NCBI RefSeq assembly: GCF_017813365.1 | Contig: NZ_JAGIZA010000004.1 | Coordinates: 124,001 to 188,000 of the forward strand | Direction: 5' to 3' | Length of the DNA: 64,000 bases | Source: Roseomonas indoligenes | Lineage (GTDB): Bacteria > Pseudomonadota > Alphaproteobacteria > Acetobacterales > Acetobacteraceae | Shown: positions 42,297 to 47,645 of the stretch, piece by piece | How the letters are laid out: every line of letters begins with the position of its first letter | How positions within the stretch are numbered: position 1 is the stretch's first letter | Position numbers and translations under genes: made by a program | The notes under the pieces: model-generated | Told to the model about the DNA's origin: nothing | The model's database searches: none | Seen by the model: the letters and a program-made list of their open reading frames with translations, nothing else

Positions 42297-42683
42297 GTGC
42301 AGCGCGCAAGAACCATCCCACGCGATTCGCGCGCTATGCTGTCAAGCAGGCTGTGCAGTCACGATGCACCCGGCAGGACAGCAACGCGACAAAGGACGGG
42401 GAGGTGATCGGCGCGACGCAACGCGAAAGGACGGTTCTTGGATTTCCGTACACGGGAAGTCTCAAGCCGGATGAGAGGAAGGGCAGGGGATGCGGCGACA
42501 GGATCGCCCGCCGAGCCGCCCAGGAGCGCGAGGCCGGAGACGGCACGACGCGGCCACTCCATCACCTCGCGCGGCGGAACCAGACCCTGTGATGCCTTCC
42601 CCCCGAGAGGTGGGCGCGCCCGCGGGTCCAGACCGATCCATGACGCGAACCCACCAGGCACGAACGATCAGGAGATCCAGCAC

Positions 42684-43433
42684 GTGAGCGATGAACAGAC
42701 CCCCCGCGCCGCCGCCATGGCGATGAGCACCACGCGCCGCAGCGCCGGGACGCGCAAGGCGAGCACCGCCGGCCGCGCCAAGCCCGCCGCCAAGGCGGCG
42801 CCGAAGGCGACAAAGGCTGCGGCCGCGAAGAAGCCGGCCGCGAAGAAGGCCGCCCCTGCGGCGAAGAAGACGACCGCCGCGCGCAAGACCACGGCCTCCC
42901 GTACCACGACGGCGAAGAAGGCCGCCCCGGCCCGCAAGGCCGCGCCCGCCCGCAAGGCCGCCGCGAGCAAGACCACCACCGCGCGCAAGACCACGGGCAC
43001 CCGCACCGCCGCCGCGAAGAAGGCCGCCCCGGCCCGCAAGCCCGCGGCGAGCCGCGCTGCCCCGGCGAAGCGCGCCACCACGGCCCGCACCGCTGCGAAG
43101 TCCGCCACCGCGCGCCGCCCGGCCGCCAAGCGCACCACCGCGGCGGCCACCACCGCCCGCAAGGCCGCGCCGAAGCGCGCCGCTGCCAAGCCCGCGGCGA
43201 AGACCACCACCGCGCGCACGACGGCCCGCAAGGCCCCGGCTTCCCGCACGACGGCCACCCGCGCTGCTGCCAGCCGCAGCACGGGCGCCCGGAAGAGCGC
43301 CGCGCCGAGCGCGCGTAGCGAAGCCGCGAAGAAGGGCGCCGAGACCCGCGCTCGCCGCAAGGCCGAGGCTGCCGCCGCGCAGGAGGCTCCCGCGCAGGAG
43401 ACCGAGGCGCAGAACGCCGGCGACCAGACCTAA
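42684..43433 (+). CDS. Histone H1-like Ala/Lys-rich DNA-binding protein
   Basis: 249-aa protein of near-repetitive sequence. After about 30 residues it is almost all Ala, Lys, Arg, Thr and Pro, built from degenerate units such as AAKKAAPARK and TTTARKTT. It ends in an acidic/Gln tail (EAPAQETEAQNAGDQT). This resembles bacterial H1-like proteins (chlamydial HC2, Pseudomonas AlgP, PhaF C-termini) that bind DNA through basic tails. GTG at 42684 follows AGGAG by about 9 nt. No globular domain is visible. The acidic C-terminus is unusual for pure tails. A perfect intrinsic terminator follows, so it is monocistronic. Confidence 0.82.
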   Translation: MSDEQTPRAAAMAMSTTRRSAGTRKASTAGRAKPAAKAAPKATKAAAAKKPAAKKAAPAAKKTTAARKTTASRTTTAKKAAPARKAAPARKAAASKTTTARKTTGTRTAAAKKAAPARKPAASRAAPAKRATTARTAAKSATARRPAAKRTTAAATTARKAAPKRAAAKPAAKTTTARTTARKAPASRTTATRAAASRSTGARKSAAPSARSEAAKKGAETRARRKAEAAAAQEAPAQETEAQNAGDQT

Positions 43434-43454: not shown

Positions 43455-43480
43455 GGGGGCGCCGCGGCGCCCCCTTTTTT
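43455..43480 (+). terminator. Intrinsic terminator of the H1-like gene
   Basis: Self-complementary GGGGGCGCCGCGGCGCCCCC (43455-43474) followed by TTTTTT (43475-43480). Classic rho-independent structure, the best in the window. Confidence 0.92.
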
Positions 43481-43489
43481 GTCCGTCGT

Positions 43490-44353
43490 CTAGTGCCGGG
43501 GCAGTGCAAGCAGGTCCGTGTGCCCTACCACGGCGCGAAGCGCGCCACGCCGCGCCTGCGCCGCCCGCATGGCCGACCAGGCGCGAATCGTTCCAGCGCC
43601 CCGTGGTGTCCAGCGTAGGGCGGCCTCAGCATGTCCCTTCGCAAGCGCATTGAGCATGCGCGTGTCCGCCGGCCCGATCCGCCAGGGAGAGGGCGCGGTG
43701 GTCACGCCGAAGCCCTGCGCGCGGAAGGCGGCGGCGGCGACTCGCGCCGCCTCGCTTCCCAGGGCAGGTCCTTCGAAGCCCTTCTCTCGCCGCTGGTCGC
43801 GCCGGAAGCCGCGCGCCACGGCTCCGTCGGAGGGATGAGGCGGAAGGAAGCGCGCGTCCCCCGCGACGTTCAGCGCCGCGTAGAAGGGCAGGCGCAGGCC
43901 TTCTGCCACCCGCTCCGCCCAGCGGCGGGACACCAGGTCGAGGAGAGCCGAGCAGACCACGCCGTCCGCCTTGCCCAGCGGCAGCCCGTCCGGCGCGTCG
44001 GCCAGGTCCCGCACCAGGCCATCCACCCGCCAGGCGCCGGAGGGCGTGTGGACGAGCAGCGTGCGCTTGTTCGGCGCCGAGACCTCGAAGCCCACCTCCA
44101 CCGCGCGCATGGCAATAGTGTCGAACGCGAACTCGATGAGGGTGACGTCCGCATCCACCAGGGTCCAGGCCTGCGGCCGGTTCAGCAGGGGCGCGAGCCA
44201 GCGGAACAGGCTGCCCGTGCCCGCCCCGAGGTCGAGCAGCCGCGGCCTTGCCGGCAAGGCCGCGGAAAGGGCGAAGGCCAAGTCGAAATCGCGCGCGCGC
44301 GCGTCGAAGGGCTCCCGCAGCTCGAGCCAGTCCGCGTCGAAGCTCTCGCTCAT
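43490..44353 (-). CDS. Class I SAM-dependent methyltransferase
   Basis: 287-aa methyltransferase. Motif I is RLLDLGAGTGSL near residue 40, with an acidic residue after the next strand (WTLVDADVTLIEFA) and DGVVCSALLDLVS as motif IV region. The C-terminal part (ARGFRRDQRREKGFEGPALG onward) is specific and has no known function. ATG at 44353 overlaps the glycosyltransferase stop by ATGA. It is the last gene of a five-gene overlapping cluster with a pterin-synthase-like protein; substrate unknown. Confidence 0.82.
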   Translation of the reverse strand: MSESFDADWLELREPFDARARDFDLAFALSAALPARPRLLDLGAGTGSLFRWLAPLLNRPQAWTLVDADVTLIEFAFDTIAMRAVEVGFEVSAPNKRTLLVHTPSGAWRVDGLVRDLADAPDGLPLGKADGVVCSALLDLVSRRWAERVAEGLRLPFYAALNVAGDARFLPPHPSDGAVARGFRRDQRREKGFEGPALGSEAARVAAAAFRAQGFGVTTAPSPWRIGPADTRMLNALAKGHAEAALRWTPRGAGTIRAWSAMRAAQARRGALRAVVGHTDLLALPRH

Positions 44354-45405
44354 GCCCCGGCTCCGGACATGGCGGCCTCGATCTCGCGGGCGAAGGCCTC
44401 CGCCCGGTCGGACCAGCGCGGCAGGCGCTCCCCGGCGCGCCAGGCGGCATCCGCCATCGCCTCGCGCAGCCCGGCATCAAAGATTGGCCGGCGCATGGCG
44501 CGGGACAGGCTGTTGCTGTCACCGGGCGCCGCGATCACGGCAGCGTCGCGCGGCGCCAGGTCGGCCAGCGCACCGCCGGCGGTAACGGCCAGCGGCAGGC
44601 CCCGCGCCAGCGCCTCCGCCACGGCCATCCCATATCCCTCCCAGTGGCTTGCAGAGGCGAAGAGGTCGGCTCTGTCGTACAGCGCTTCCAGCGCCGCGCC
44701 CTCCACCTCGCCGGCGAAGGCGACGCGCTGCGCGATGCCCAGTTCCTCCGCGAGGGCGCGCAGCCCCTCGGCATGGACCGCGTCGCGCACAGGCCCGGCG
44801 ACGGTGAGGCGCCACTCCAGGTCTGTCAGCCGCCCGAGCGCGCGCAGCAGCACGTCATATCCCTTGCGTGCCACGACCGTGCCCACAGAGAGGATGGCGC
44901 AGCCCGGGCCGCCGGAGCCCCGGGCGCGCGGCGCGGGATCGGTGCCCGGCTCAACCGTGCCGATGCGCCCGGGATCGGCGCCGAACTCCGGCGCCAGCCG
45001 CTGCGCCGTGAGGCGGGAAGTGGTGACTAGACGTCCCAGGCGGGGGAAGAGCTCGCGCTCACGCGCCCGCAAGGCCTCGCGCTCCTCCTCGGAGAAGCCG
45101 GTTTCCAGCGCCGTGGGGTGGTGGATCAGTCCGACGGCCCGGGCGAGGGCAGGGGATGCAGCGATCGGCGCGAAGGCCGGTAGGCCGAGCCCGTCCACCA
45201 CCAGCGCCTCCGTCGCGAGGAGCCGGTCCACCACGCCGCGCGCGGCGGCCTCCGCCTCCGCGTCCGGCAGGGGATGGCGGCCGGGCATTTCCTCCACGCG
45301 CATCTCGTGGCCGGCCGCGCGCAGTCCCTCGAGGATGCGCCGATCATAGGCATAGCCGCCGCTCGTAGCGGAGAGCGGCGCCGGGACGGCGAGGACGAGC
45401 CTCAC
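44350..45405 (-). CDS. GT4-type glycosyltransferase
   Basis: 351-aa GT-B fold glycosyltransferase. The N-terminal domain has the SGGYAYDRRILEGLRAAGHE acceptor-side motif. The C-terminal domain has LSVGTVVARKGYDVLLRALG (nucleotide-sugar domain start) and the E-x7-E motif EGYGMAVAEALARGLP. GTG start overlaps the upstream stop (GTGA). As the only sugar-transfer gene in its operon, it may glycosylate the product of the neighbouring pterin/purine-like enzymes; family members more often build envelope glycans. Confidence 0.88.
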   Translation of the reverse strand: MRLVLAVPAPLSATSGGYAYDRRILEGLRAAGHEMRVEEMPGRHPLPDAEAEAAARGVVDRLLATEALVVDGLGLPAFAPIAASPALARAVGLIHHPTALETGFSEEEREALRARERELFPRLGRLVTTSRLTAQRLAPEFGADPGRIGTVEPGTDPAPRARGSGGPGCAILSVGTVVARKGYDVLLRALGRLTDLEWRLTVAGPVRDAVHAEGLRALAEELGIAQRVAFAGEVEGAALEALYDRADLFASASHWEGYGMAVAEALARGLPLAVTAGGALADLAPRDAAVIAAPGDSNSLSRAMRRPIFDAGLREAMADAAWRAGERLPRWSDRAEAFAREIEAAMSGAGA

Positions 45406-45854
45406 GCCGTTGCGGCCTTCCGAAGCGGGGCGTCATAGGACGCCCAGGCCAGCGGGCTCTCCCGAAGCAGCACCTTTACCGACTGCACGGCCTTGCCGCC
45501 CTCGCCCAGCTTCCCCTGCGCGAGCGCGGCGCAGAGCAGGCCGTGGACGTGGAAGCAGAGGAACTCCGTGCTCGTGTTCTGGCCGGCGAACTGGGGCAGG
45601 TTGTCCAGGTTGTCGTAGTCGAAGCTGTCGAGGGTGCGGCGCAGCTCCACGCGGGCCGCGGCGATGTCCACCAGCAGGTTGGCGTTGTCCAGCGCCGGCG
45701 CGCGGAACTCCGCCTCCACCACGAAGGTCGCGCCGTGAACGCGCTGGGCGGGGCCGAAGGCCTCTCCCTTGAAGGAGTGCGCGATCATCACGTGGTCGGC
45801 GACGGTCAGGCTGTACATCGGGATCTCGTCCAAGGTTCGCAGGTCAGGGTTCAT
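45402..45854 (-). CDS. 6-pyruvoyl-tetrahydropterin synthase-like protein with altered active site
   Basis: 150-aa T-fold protein resembling PTPS/QueD. ADHVMIAHSFKGEAFGPAQRVHGATF aligns with the QueD opening. Numbering from the internal Met (start 45818), zinc ligands His14 and His28 are kept but the third (HGH) is Ala30, the catalytic Cys position is Ala24, and the Asp-His pair (LDH) reads FDY. Only the Glu of TSTEF remains as pterin anchor. So it is unlikely to be a normal PTPS or QueD. Start is either 45854 (11-nt overlap with the upstream gene) or 45818 (better ribosome-binding site, GGACGAG). Confidence 0.8.
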   Translation of the reverse strand: MNPDLRTLDEIPMYSLTVADHVMIAHSFKGEAFGPAQRVHGATFVVEAEFRAPALDNANLLVDIAAARVELRRTLDSFDYDNLDNLPQFAGQNTSTEFLCFHVHGLLCAALAQGKLGEGGKAVQSVKVLLRESPLAWASYDAPLRKAATA

Positions 45855-46845
45855 AGGTGACGACGGGCAGCAACGGCGCCGCCTCCCCCTCGGGCGGGGC
45901 GCCGAGCAGGCCGGGCATGGCCCGCGGCAGGTCGCGGAAGGCGACCATGGGGCCGCAGAGCGCGTCCAGCGCCGGATCTGCAAGAAGGGAGAGGGCGAGC
46001 GCCATCCGCTCCGCATGGCTGCGCCGCCCGCGCATCGGCGCCGCGACATGCCCGACCTGGGTGGACCGCAAGGTGACGCGATGGGCGTGGAAGGCTTCGC
46101 CCAGCGGCAGGGCGCATTCCGCGGCACCAAACCAGGACGCTTCCAGGATCCGCGCCTCGAAGCCCGCACAGCGCAGCGCGGTCCGCAGCCCTTCCGGATT
46201 CCCGGAGCCGTGGAGGATCAGGTCCCGGTTGTCAGGCGCGTCCTCCGGCGCCACCAGCCGAAGCCCCAGGCGCTGTGCGACGGGCGCGCGCAGCGGGTCG
46301 GGATCGGCCACCGCCAGCTCCAGCGCCGGGAAGCGCGACAGCAACCAGGCACAGAGCAGCCCGACCACCCCAGCACCGATCACCAGCGCGCGCTCACCCG
46401 CCAGGGGCTGCGCGTCCCAGATCACGTTCAGCGCCGTTTCCATGTTCGCGGCCAGCACCGCGCGCCACTCCGGCACCCGGTCCGGCACGATGGCGCACAT
46501 GGAAACCGGCGCGACGAACCGGTCCTGGTGGGGGTGCAGGCAGAAGACGCGCTGACCCAGCCACTCCTCCGGACCTTCCTCCACCACGCCCACCGCCGCG
46601 TAGCCGTACTTCACGGGAAAGGGAAAGGCGCCGGCCTGCATCGGGCCGCGCATGCGCGCCCACTCGCTCTCCGGGACGCGGCCGTTGAACACCAATCGCT
46701 CCGTGCCGCGGCTGATGCCGCTGGCGAGGGTCCGCACCAGCACCTCCCCCGGTCCGGGGGGCCGCAGCGTCTCGCCGTGGATCGCGCCCTCGCCGGGGCC
46801 GGTGGTCCAGAAGGCTGTGGCGGTGCCAGCGGCGGCGGCGGTCAA
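45844..46845 (-). CDS. Zinc-independent MDR-family dehydrogenase (BchC-like)
   Basis: 333-aa medium-chain dehydrogenase. The GroES-like half has LASGISRGTERLVFNG, the motif of BchC-type members that lack the usual catalytic zinc Cys. The Rossmann half has ALVIGAGVVGLLCAWLL and LAVADPDPLR (acidic end of strand 2, NAD preference). TTG at 46845 overlaps the reductase stop (TTGA). It sits second in the five-gene overlapping cluster. The substrate is probably the pathway intermediate, not an alcohol in general metabolism. Confidence 0.82.
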   Translation of the reverse strand: MTAAAAGTATAFWTTGPGEGAIHGETLRPPGPGEVLVRTLASGISRGTERLVFNGRVPESEWARMRGPMQAGAFPFPVKYGYAAVGVVEEGPEEWLGQRVFCLHPHQDRFVAPVSMCAIVPDRVPEWRAVLAANMETALNVIWDAQPLAGERALVIGAGVVGLLCAWLLSRFPALELAVADPDPLRAPVAQRLGLRLVAPEDAPDNRDLILHGSGNPEGLRTALRCAGFEARILEASWFGAAECALPLGEAFHAHRVTLRSTQVGHVAAPMRGRRSHAERMALALSLLADPALDALCGPMVAFRDLPRAMPGLLGAPPEGEAAPLLPVVTYEP

Positions 46846-47645
46846 GCGCCCTCGCAGACGCGCGGGCGCGTGCGGCGCAGGGGGATGTCGAAAAGGATGT
46901 CGCCGCCCTCCAGGGGATAAGGTGTCCAGTTGAAGCGCAGGCCGTCGGCGATGCGCCCGGCCTCCGGCAGGATGAAGGCCGCCCGGCCGGAGCCGAGGAT
47001 GACGGGTGCGATCGTGACGTGCAGCCGATCCAGCAGGCCCGCGGCGAGAAAGGCGGAAACCGTGATCCCCCCGCCCTCCACGAACAGCCGGGACAGGCCC
47101 CGCGCGTGCAGGGCGCGCAGCAGCGCGGCCAAATCCATCCCCTCCGCGCCGCGCGGAAGGCGCAGTACCTCCGCCGCCCCGTGGCGATCCCCGCCGGCCG
47201 CATCCTCCAGGCAGGCGAGCAGCGTCCGCGGGTCGCCGTCGCAGAAGATGCGGTGCGACGGTGCCAGACGCCGCCGCGGATCGAGCACCACGCGGACCGG
47301 GTTCACCCCCGCCACCTCGCGCGTCGTCAGGCGCGGATCGTCCTTCTCCACCGTGCCCGCGCCCACCAGCACCGCGTCGCACAGCGCGCGCAGACGGTGC
47401 GTGTGGAGGATGTCGCCGCGCCCGCCGATCCACTGGCTGGAACCGCCGGCCGTGGCGATTCGCCCATCCAGCGTCTGCGCCAGGCGCCCGACAAGCGTGC
47501 ATCCATCCATTCCCGCGCCGCCGGCGAGAACGGGCGCGAAGAGAGAGGACAGAGGATGCTCCGGCAGGGGCGCGACATCACCGGCGCGCCGCGCCAGCAG
47601 CGCCGCCCAGGCCTGTTCCGATGCACTGTCCGCCGTGGCGTTCAT
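46842..47645 (-). CDS. RibD C-terminal-domain (DHFR-fold) reductase
   Basis: 267-aa NADPH-dependent reductase related to the RibD reductase half. Diagnostic segments are VGRLAQTLDGRIATAGGSSQWI, DAVLVGAGTVEKDDPRLTTR (AGTVxxDDPxLT signature) and RLFVEGGGITVSAFLAAGLLDRLHV. No deaminase domain is fused. In riboflavin synthesis this fold reduces a ribose of a pyrimidine intermediate; related free-standing proteins act in antibiotic and pterin chemistry. First gene of the five-gene cluster; divergent neighbours are flagellar genes. Confidence 0.86.
   Translation of the reverse strand: MNATADSASEQAWAALLARRAGDVAPLPEHPLSSLFAPVLAGGAGMDGCTLVGRLAQTLDGRIATAGGSSQWIGGRGDILHTHRLRALCDAVLVGAGTVEKDDPRLTTREVAGVNPVRVVLDPRRRLAPSHRIFCDGDPRTLLACLEDAAGGDRHGAAEVLRLPRGAEGMDLAALLRALHARGLSRLFVEGGGITVSAFLAAGLLDRLHVTIAPVILGSGRAAFILPEAGRIADGLRFNWTPYPLEGGDILFDIPLRRTRPRVCEGA

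Follow-up and report, generated by a model that had tools for sequence, protein, structure and literature searches.

A widely conserved five-gene cluster around a PTPS-IV protein: a candidate pathway to a glycosylated, methylated pterin-like compound

What do five bacterial genes make when each overlaps the next and the protein in their midst resembles a pterin synthase? The question arises in a 64,000-nucleotide stretch of Roseomonas indoligenes DNA (contig NZ_JAGIZA010000004.1, positions 124,001 to 188,000; this whole stretch is the window hereafter), from a genome of 5.8 Mb in 61 contigs. On the minus strand of the window, at 43490-47645, lie genes for a RibD_C-type reductase (RIBD), a BchC-like medium-chain dehydrogenase (DH), a T-fold protein (PTPS-IV), a GT4 glycosyltransferase (GT) and an S-adenosylmethionine (SAM) methyltransferase-like protein (MT), all five free of internal stops. 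Their exact ends bear out the serial overlaps noted in the original prediction, which measure 4, 11, 4 and 4 nt (TTGA, an 11-nt stretch, GTGA and ATGA). We give about even weight to the view that these genes form the core of a dedicated pathway derived from guanosine triphosphate (GTP), apart from the synthesis of riboflavin, folate, queuosine and coenzyme F420. The product is probably a sugar-bearing, methylated pterin-like compound assembled from a GTP-made building block, which some bacteria may carry bound to the membrane.

The set recurs far beyond the close relatives of R. indoligenes. Loci were counted where at least 4.5 kb lay on each side, which kept 81 of 100 for gene order and 86 of 105 for partner genes. 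Co-occurrence of all five genes in other genomes, the check that the original prediction had named, was found in 54 of the 81 loci; all but RIBD were present in 17, all but MT in 6 and fewer in 4. RIBD-DH-PTPS-GT-MT is the arrangement in 39 cases; in 13 others RIBD faces a DH-PTPS-GT-MT row. DH-PTPS-GT-MT is found in Alphaproteobacteria, Gammaproteobacteria, a Gemmatimonadales bin and Actinomycetota, so that the expected recurrence in alphaproteobacteria was right but too narrow; since the order is conserved across phyla, we reject chance or lineage-specific adjacency as an explanation. In addition, pairwise sequence divergence rises in step among the five genes (r = 0.71-0.91; up to 31 loci, with acetobacterial loci thinned to every fifth and shared species history uncorrected). 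The five genes behave as one pathway, as had been supposed from their overlaps.

Within the order, the PTPS protein has a match in 45 of 150 genomes, and for 43 of these (R. indoligenes included) E is < 1e-30. In other genomes of this order, 29 loci of only about 3.4 kb apiece were compared, and 24 of them hold all five genes; the remaining five hold four genes (L012, L022, L023 and L024) or three (L029). In three of these relatives a gap of about 800 nt separates PTPS from GT (L022, 1880-2720; L023, 1900-2740; L024, 690-1510), which by eye appears to hold a VapBC-like toxin-antitoxin pair, a ribbon-helix antitoxin and a PIN-type protein, and not a pathway gene. Across the class, 45 of 385 genomes, spread over 24 families as counted from the table, reach E <= 1e-8, and among 29 short loci from other families of the class DH, PTPS and GT occur together in 27, joined by MT in 25, with RIBD falling inside the locus in 12. 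At the level of the phylum, 19 of 299 genomes match a profile at E <= 1e-20, six of which lie outside the class. The protein also reaches one order of small genomes, where 64 of 100 match and two 20-kb stretches have GC contents of 26 and 28%. A search of named contigs yielded at least 596 stretches, of which 593 encode a relative, and the best 80, which were kept, include Streptomyces, Lentzea, Amycolatopsis, Chromatiaceae, Larsenimonas and a Gemmatimonadales bin. Plasmids carry the set as well: an Agrobacterium pAt (L198), pOB3b1 of Methylosinus trichosporium (L195) and, in Microbacterium, a mobilizable plasmid (L197).

The T-fold protein (45402..45854, minus strand; 150 aa, ATG to TGA) matches the Pfam PTPS family (4e-18) and falls under the NCBIfam cut-offs of both QueD and PTPS. 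Its FGPAQ signature, F33-G-P-A-Q37, is invariant in 25 of 25 aligned members and places it in the PTPS-IV subfamily. Among solved structures only 3d7j (SCO6650 of Streptomyces coelicolor; 7.3e-40) is a close relative, with the same fold and 52% identity in the structure alignment. An AlphaFold2 model with a mean predicted local distance difference test score (pLDDT) of 88.8 superimposes on 3d7j with template modelling (TM) scores of 0.86/0.96; the QueD and PTPS chains at ranks 3-30 give query TM scores of 0.60-0.71. The catalytic machinery of PTPS consists of a Cys, an Asp-His pair and three zinc-binding His residues, and a conserved Glu anchors the pterin. At the site of the catalytic Cys and HGH motif (codons 36-42; 45729..45749, minus strand), the C-x3-HGH of QueD has become A-x3-HGA in all 25 members, with A36, H40, G41 and A42 invariant, so that the catalytic Cys and the third zinc His are both Ala. 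Likewise, every one of the 25 has Tyr or Phe in place of the catalytic His of the LDH-x-NLD stretch. Glu97 (45564..45566, minus strand) is invariant throughout and aligns with the TTE/STE of solved PTPS. Having lost the third zinc His along with the catalytic Cys and His, and kept the pterin-anchoring Glu, PTPS-IV is probably no ordinary pterin synthase, as judged from these residues.

Four further genes flank that of PTPS-IV. RIBD (46842..47645, minus strand; 267 aa, ATG to TGA) matches RibD_C (4.6e-44) and has no deaminase domain. Its top solved relative is 6p8c, a 2,5-diamino-6-ribosylamino-4(3H)-pyrimidinone 5'-phosphate reductase (2.9e-31), and it scores under the cut-offs both of bifunctional RibD (TIGR00326, 109.9 bits against 156.35, covering profile positions 144-341 of 343 alone) and of the 2,5-diamino-6-ribosylamino-pyrimidinone 5'-phosphate reductase equivalog (TIGR01508, 115.8 against 186.45). 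Like the archaeal and fungal riboflavin reductases of the ArfC/RIB7 type, RIBD is a stand-alone RibD_C reductase, with a 2,5-diamino compound as its predicted substrate; unlike them, it is linked to DH, PTPS-IV, GT and MT, has the riboflavin genes elsewhere and lies below the equivalog cut-off. DH (45844..46845, minus strand; 333 aa, TTG to TGA) has bchC as its top NCBIfam match (TIGR01202, 3.8e-14, 52.5 bits), far under the cut-off of 291.25, and no match in a Pfam scan; ADH_zinc_N is detected in 7 of 12 homologues. A profile of those 12 homologues matches 18 solved chains, of which six are polyol or diol dehydrogenases. A single-sequence structure prediction for DH reached a mean pLDDT of 40.0 and was set aside as poor. 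GT (44350..45405, minus strand; 351 aa, GTG to TGA) belongs to GT4 by its match to Glycos_transf_1 (3.8e-25, 88.8 bits against a gathering score of 26.4); its top NCBIfam matches, EpsE (2.1e-18) and MshA (1.1e-16), are both under cut-off, as is the best match of the Streptomyces homologue in L132 (MshA, 7.1e-26). MT (43490..44353, minus strand; 287 aa, ATG to TAG) gives weak matches to methyltransferase families of Pfam (20.8 and 21.4 bits against a gathering score of 27; Methyltransf_23, 3.4e-4), and its DLg.G.G motif is retained across an alignment of 11 divergent homologues.

From where would the substrate come? GTP cyclohydrolase II (GCHII) is a neighbour of the cluster in 30 of the 86 loci, counting a degenerate match in L155, and a creatininase-family gene in 23. 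The original prediction's pterin- or pyrimidine-like metabolite finds support as a substrate in the nearest relatives of the reductase and in this recurring GCHII neighbour; a pterin-synthase reaction of the known type finds none, the residues for it being replaced in 25 of 25 members. With L155 left out, the switch column of GCHII holds Met in 15 Streptomyces, His in 3 Pseudonocardiales and Tyr in 12 proteobacterial sequences. Creatininase shares the locus with non-Tyr GCHII in 18 of 18 cases and with Tyr GCHII in 3 of 12 (Fisher p = 1.5e-5), a contrast confounded with descent since all 18 non-Tyr loci are from Actinomycetota; L194, L196 and L198, examined once the pattern was known, all fit it. 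SCO6655, a GCHII encoded near SCO6650 in S. coelicolor, is reported to stop at the formyl compound, with Met in place of Tyr as the cause, and a creatininase beside non-Tyr GCHII is what a formyl intermediate would need. PMC3509567 cites Spoonamore 2006 and remarks on a change of GCHII activities among three Streptomyces genes. In the R. indoligenes genome a complete, separate RibD lies beside the riboflavin genes (G000:C23), and the GCHII domain of the RibBA encoded there is degenerate. Two GCHII matches were found in this genome (G000:C60:134663-135766 and G000:C23:136721-137347). The stand-alone GCHII, of the Tyr type with its Cys motif intact, is on a contig other than that of the cluster. 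Because the RibBA domain is degenerate, it appears to be the only intact copy of the two, and it may feed both riboflavin synthesis and the cluster pathway.

Further partners point to the membrane. Among the same 86 loci, a CDP-alcohol phosphatidyltransferase gene is present in 28 and a flippase-like LPG_synthase_TM gene in 22; since these proteins accompany the set, their presence suggests that the product is placed on a lipid in some bacteria. Sulfatase-family and MdoH-like glucosyltransferase genes recur in 7 loci each and FkbM-type methyltransferase genes in 5, L123, L146, L153, L160 and L194 being among the loci with FkbM-type or MdoH-like genes; CDP-alcohol and FkbM proteins were counted with separate probes. 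The CDP-alcohol protein of L151 shows similarity, short of the cut-offs, to PgsA and to archaetidylinositol phosphate synthase. In Streptomyces the genes run CDP-alcohol phosphatidyltransferase, DH, PTPS, GT, MT, flippase-like protein, creatininase and GCHII, with no RIBD, and the numbers of SCO6650 and SCO6655 would fit this order. Unlike the Streptomyces set, that of the window has RIBD, has a Tyr-type GCHII elsewhere in the genome and has no creatininase or CDP-alcohol gene nearby. Annotated replicons repeat the same families in Palleronia, M. trichosporium OB3b, Streptomyces fungicidicus, the Microbacterium plasmid and Agrobacterium pAt. The Methylosinus replicon has the set and none of the four main partners, Palleronia (L194) departs from the usual order in having GT upstream of the GCHII gene, and Agrobacterium pAt Yub001 has in one row sulfatase, flippase-like protein, CDP-alcohol phosphatidyltransferase, RibA, DH, PTPS, GT, MT and RibD.

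Based on these observations, we propose the following model. GCHII, encoded on another contig here and beside the cluster in many bacteria, would form 2,5-diamino-6-ribosylamino-4-pyrimidinone 5'-phosphate; where GCHII retains the formyl group, the creatininase-like hydrolase would take it off. RIBD would then reduce the ribosyl arm to a ribityl at the 2,5-diamino stage, and because it is without a deaminase domain the 2-amino group, the mark of a pterin, would be kept. DH may oxidise a hydroxyl of this polyol arm, and oxidation at C2' could allow the 5-amino group to close a dihydropterin ring. The T-fold protein would grip the 2-amino-4-oxo ring through Glu97 and guide closure or tautomerisation by means other than the Cys/His chemistry of PTPS. 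GT would attach a sugar and MT a methyl group. Finally, in lineages with the CDP-alcohol phosphatidyltransferase and the flippase-like protein, the polyol phosphate would be mounted on a lipid. A bolder form of this proposal is that the cluster defines a new class of molecule, a glycosylated and methylated pterin- or pyrimidine-ribitol made from the GCHII product, often joined to lipid through its polyol phosphate and flipped to serve as a nucleotide-derived, redox-active or light-absorbing head group of the envelope, with the T-fold protein as a re-purposed ring-closing enzyme; we regard this as unlikely.

Several observations weigh against a dedicated GTP-derived pathway. The set is patchy, in that 105 of the 150 genomes of the order have no match and two of the 45 matches are weak. 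In the lineage of the window, GCHII and creatininase are each near the cluster in 0 of 40 loci, the CDP-alcohol and flippase-like proteins likewise; lineage groups here were assigned by record title and by range of locus number, and this one includes several metagenome-assembled genomes. The Tyr-type GCHII of R. indoligenes and its two creatininase-family genes are on other contigs than the cluster, and a probe for the CDP-alcohol protein, run without a positive control, found no homologue in this genome. GTP cyclohydrolase I (GCHI) is encoded there too, and would make another route to plain dihydroneopterin superfluous. The creatininase association is loosened both by its confounding with descent and by L152, L158 and L159, in which a Tyr GCHII has a creatininase beside it. 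RIBD is missing from the Streptomyces clusters and is near only 3 of 19 actinobacterial loci, so that not every cluster encodes the reduction step in cis. The top solved matches of DH are RspB, the best, and an alcohol dehydrogenase, not polyol dehydrogenases, and they span mainly the nucleotide-binding part. Lastly, every reaction, their order and the product itself are what we infer from the genes.

Could the cluster serve mainly the envelope, an alternative that the original prediction had itself raised, making a polyol-phosphate- or pterin-bearing head group of a phospholipid or glycolipid, decorated with sugar and methyl, with the T-fold protein as a binding or scaffold subunit? The CDP-alcohol, flippase-like, sulfatase, MdoH-like and FkbM genes counted above, the row on pAt Yub001 and the likeness of the L151 protein to PgsA and archaetidylinositol phosphate synthase all favour this. 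However, none of these five gene families occurs in the 40 loci of the window's lineage, and the CDP-alcohol probe, run without a positive control, drew its blank in R. indoligenes; we consider the reading possible and rather doubtful. It is distinctly improbable that the genes represent a diverged form of ordinary pterin or queuosine metabolism, in which PTPS-IV would replace QueD or PTPS and GT would act as in the making of cyanobacterial pterin glycosides. PTPS-IV does retain the T-fold and the Glu, and glycosylated pterins exist in cyanobacteria and Chlorobium, which makes them, as pterins bearing a sugar, similar to the compound proposed here. Against this stand the replacement of Cys and the third zinc His by Ala and of the catalytic His by Tyr or Phe in every aligned member, and the scores under the QueD and PTPS cut-offs; the loss of catalytic residues led us to judge such a replacement unlikely, with no search by name for QueC, QueE or sepiapterin reductase beside the cluster. 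Biopterin-type pterins, from which those glycosides derive, are made through GCHI, whereas the cyclohydrolase that recurs beside the cluster is GCHII, together with RibD_C genes.

A role for PTPS-IV in coenzyme F420 (deazaflavin) synthesis is the least probable of the alternatives, and very improbable. The review PMC5041015 assigns PTPS-IV to F420 on the basis of unpublished work, and its PTPS-IV may differ from the FGPAQ group of PMC5445326. CofD had no match in the R. indoligenes genome in a search that was positive in 10 of 14 control genomes, from which we judge an F420 role excluded for this genome, and there was no F420 biosynthesis gene among the recurring neighbour families identified, not every neighbour having been scanned.

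How much of this was already known? The finding is not wholly new, since the subfamily, one structure and one partner enzyme had been described. FGPAQ is given in PMC5445326 as the signature of the PTPS-IV subfamily of COG0720, and its passages on that subfamily note RibD_C and PF00925 in the neighbourhood, features common to the cluster of the window; the same passages contain no pathway, no DH, GT, MT, creatininase or CDP-alcohol partners and no catalytic-residue loss. The original prediction knew of no characterised pathway with this enzyme set, and we found none in the literature searched, which left out most subscription papers; in the portions of that literature available, we met no description of the gene combination, the catalytic-residue loss or the GCHII/creatininase pattern.

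As judged by eye, a gene for a Lys/Ala-rich histone-H1-like protein (42438-43433) adjoins the cluster in the window, convergent with it, and is followed at about 43455-43484 by a terminator-like hairpin, rich in GC and accompanied by a T run.

A pathway that spans Streptomyces and alphaproteobacteria whose genomes are of 1.4-1.6 Mb would suggest that some generally useful cofactor, pigment or lipid is still missing from the known inventory. It would assign a function to the solved structure 3d7j and would explain the formyl-retaining GCHII of Streptomyces. Furthermore, it would correct the annotation '6-carboxytetrahydropterin synthase' in the PTPS-IV subfamily, which is the name given to its members in 14 of 20 plasmid records.

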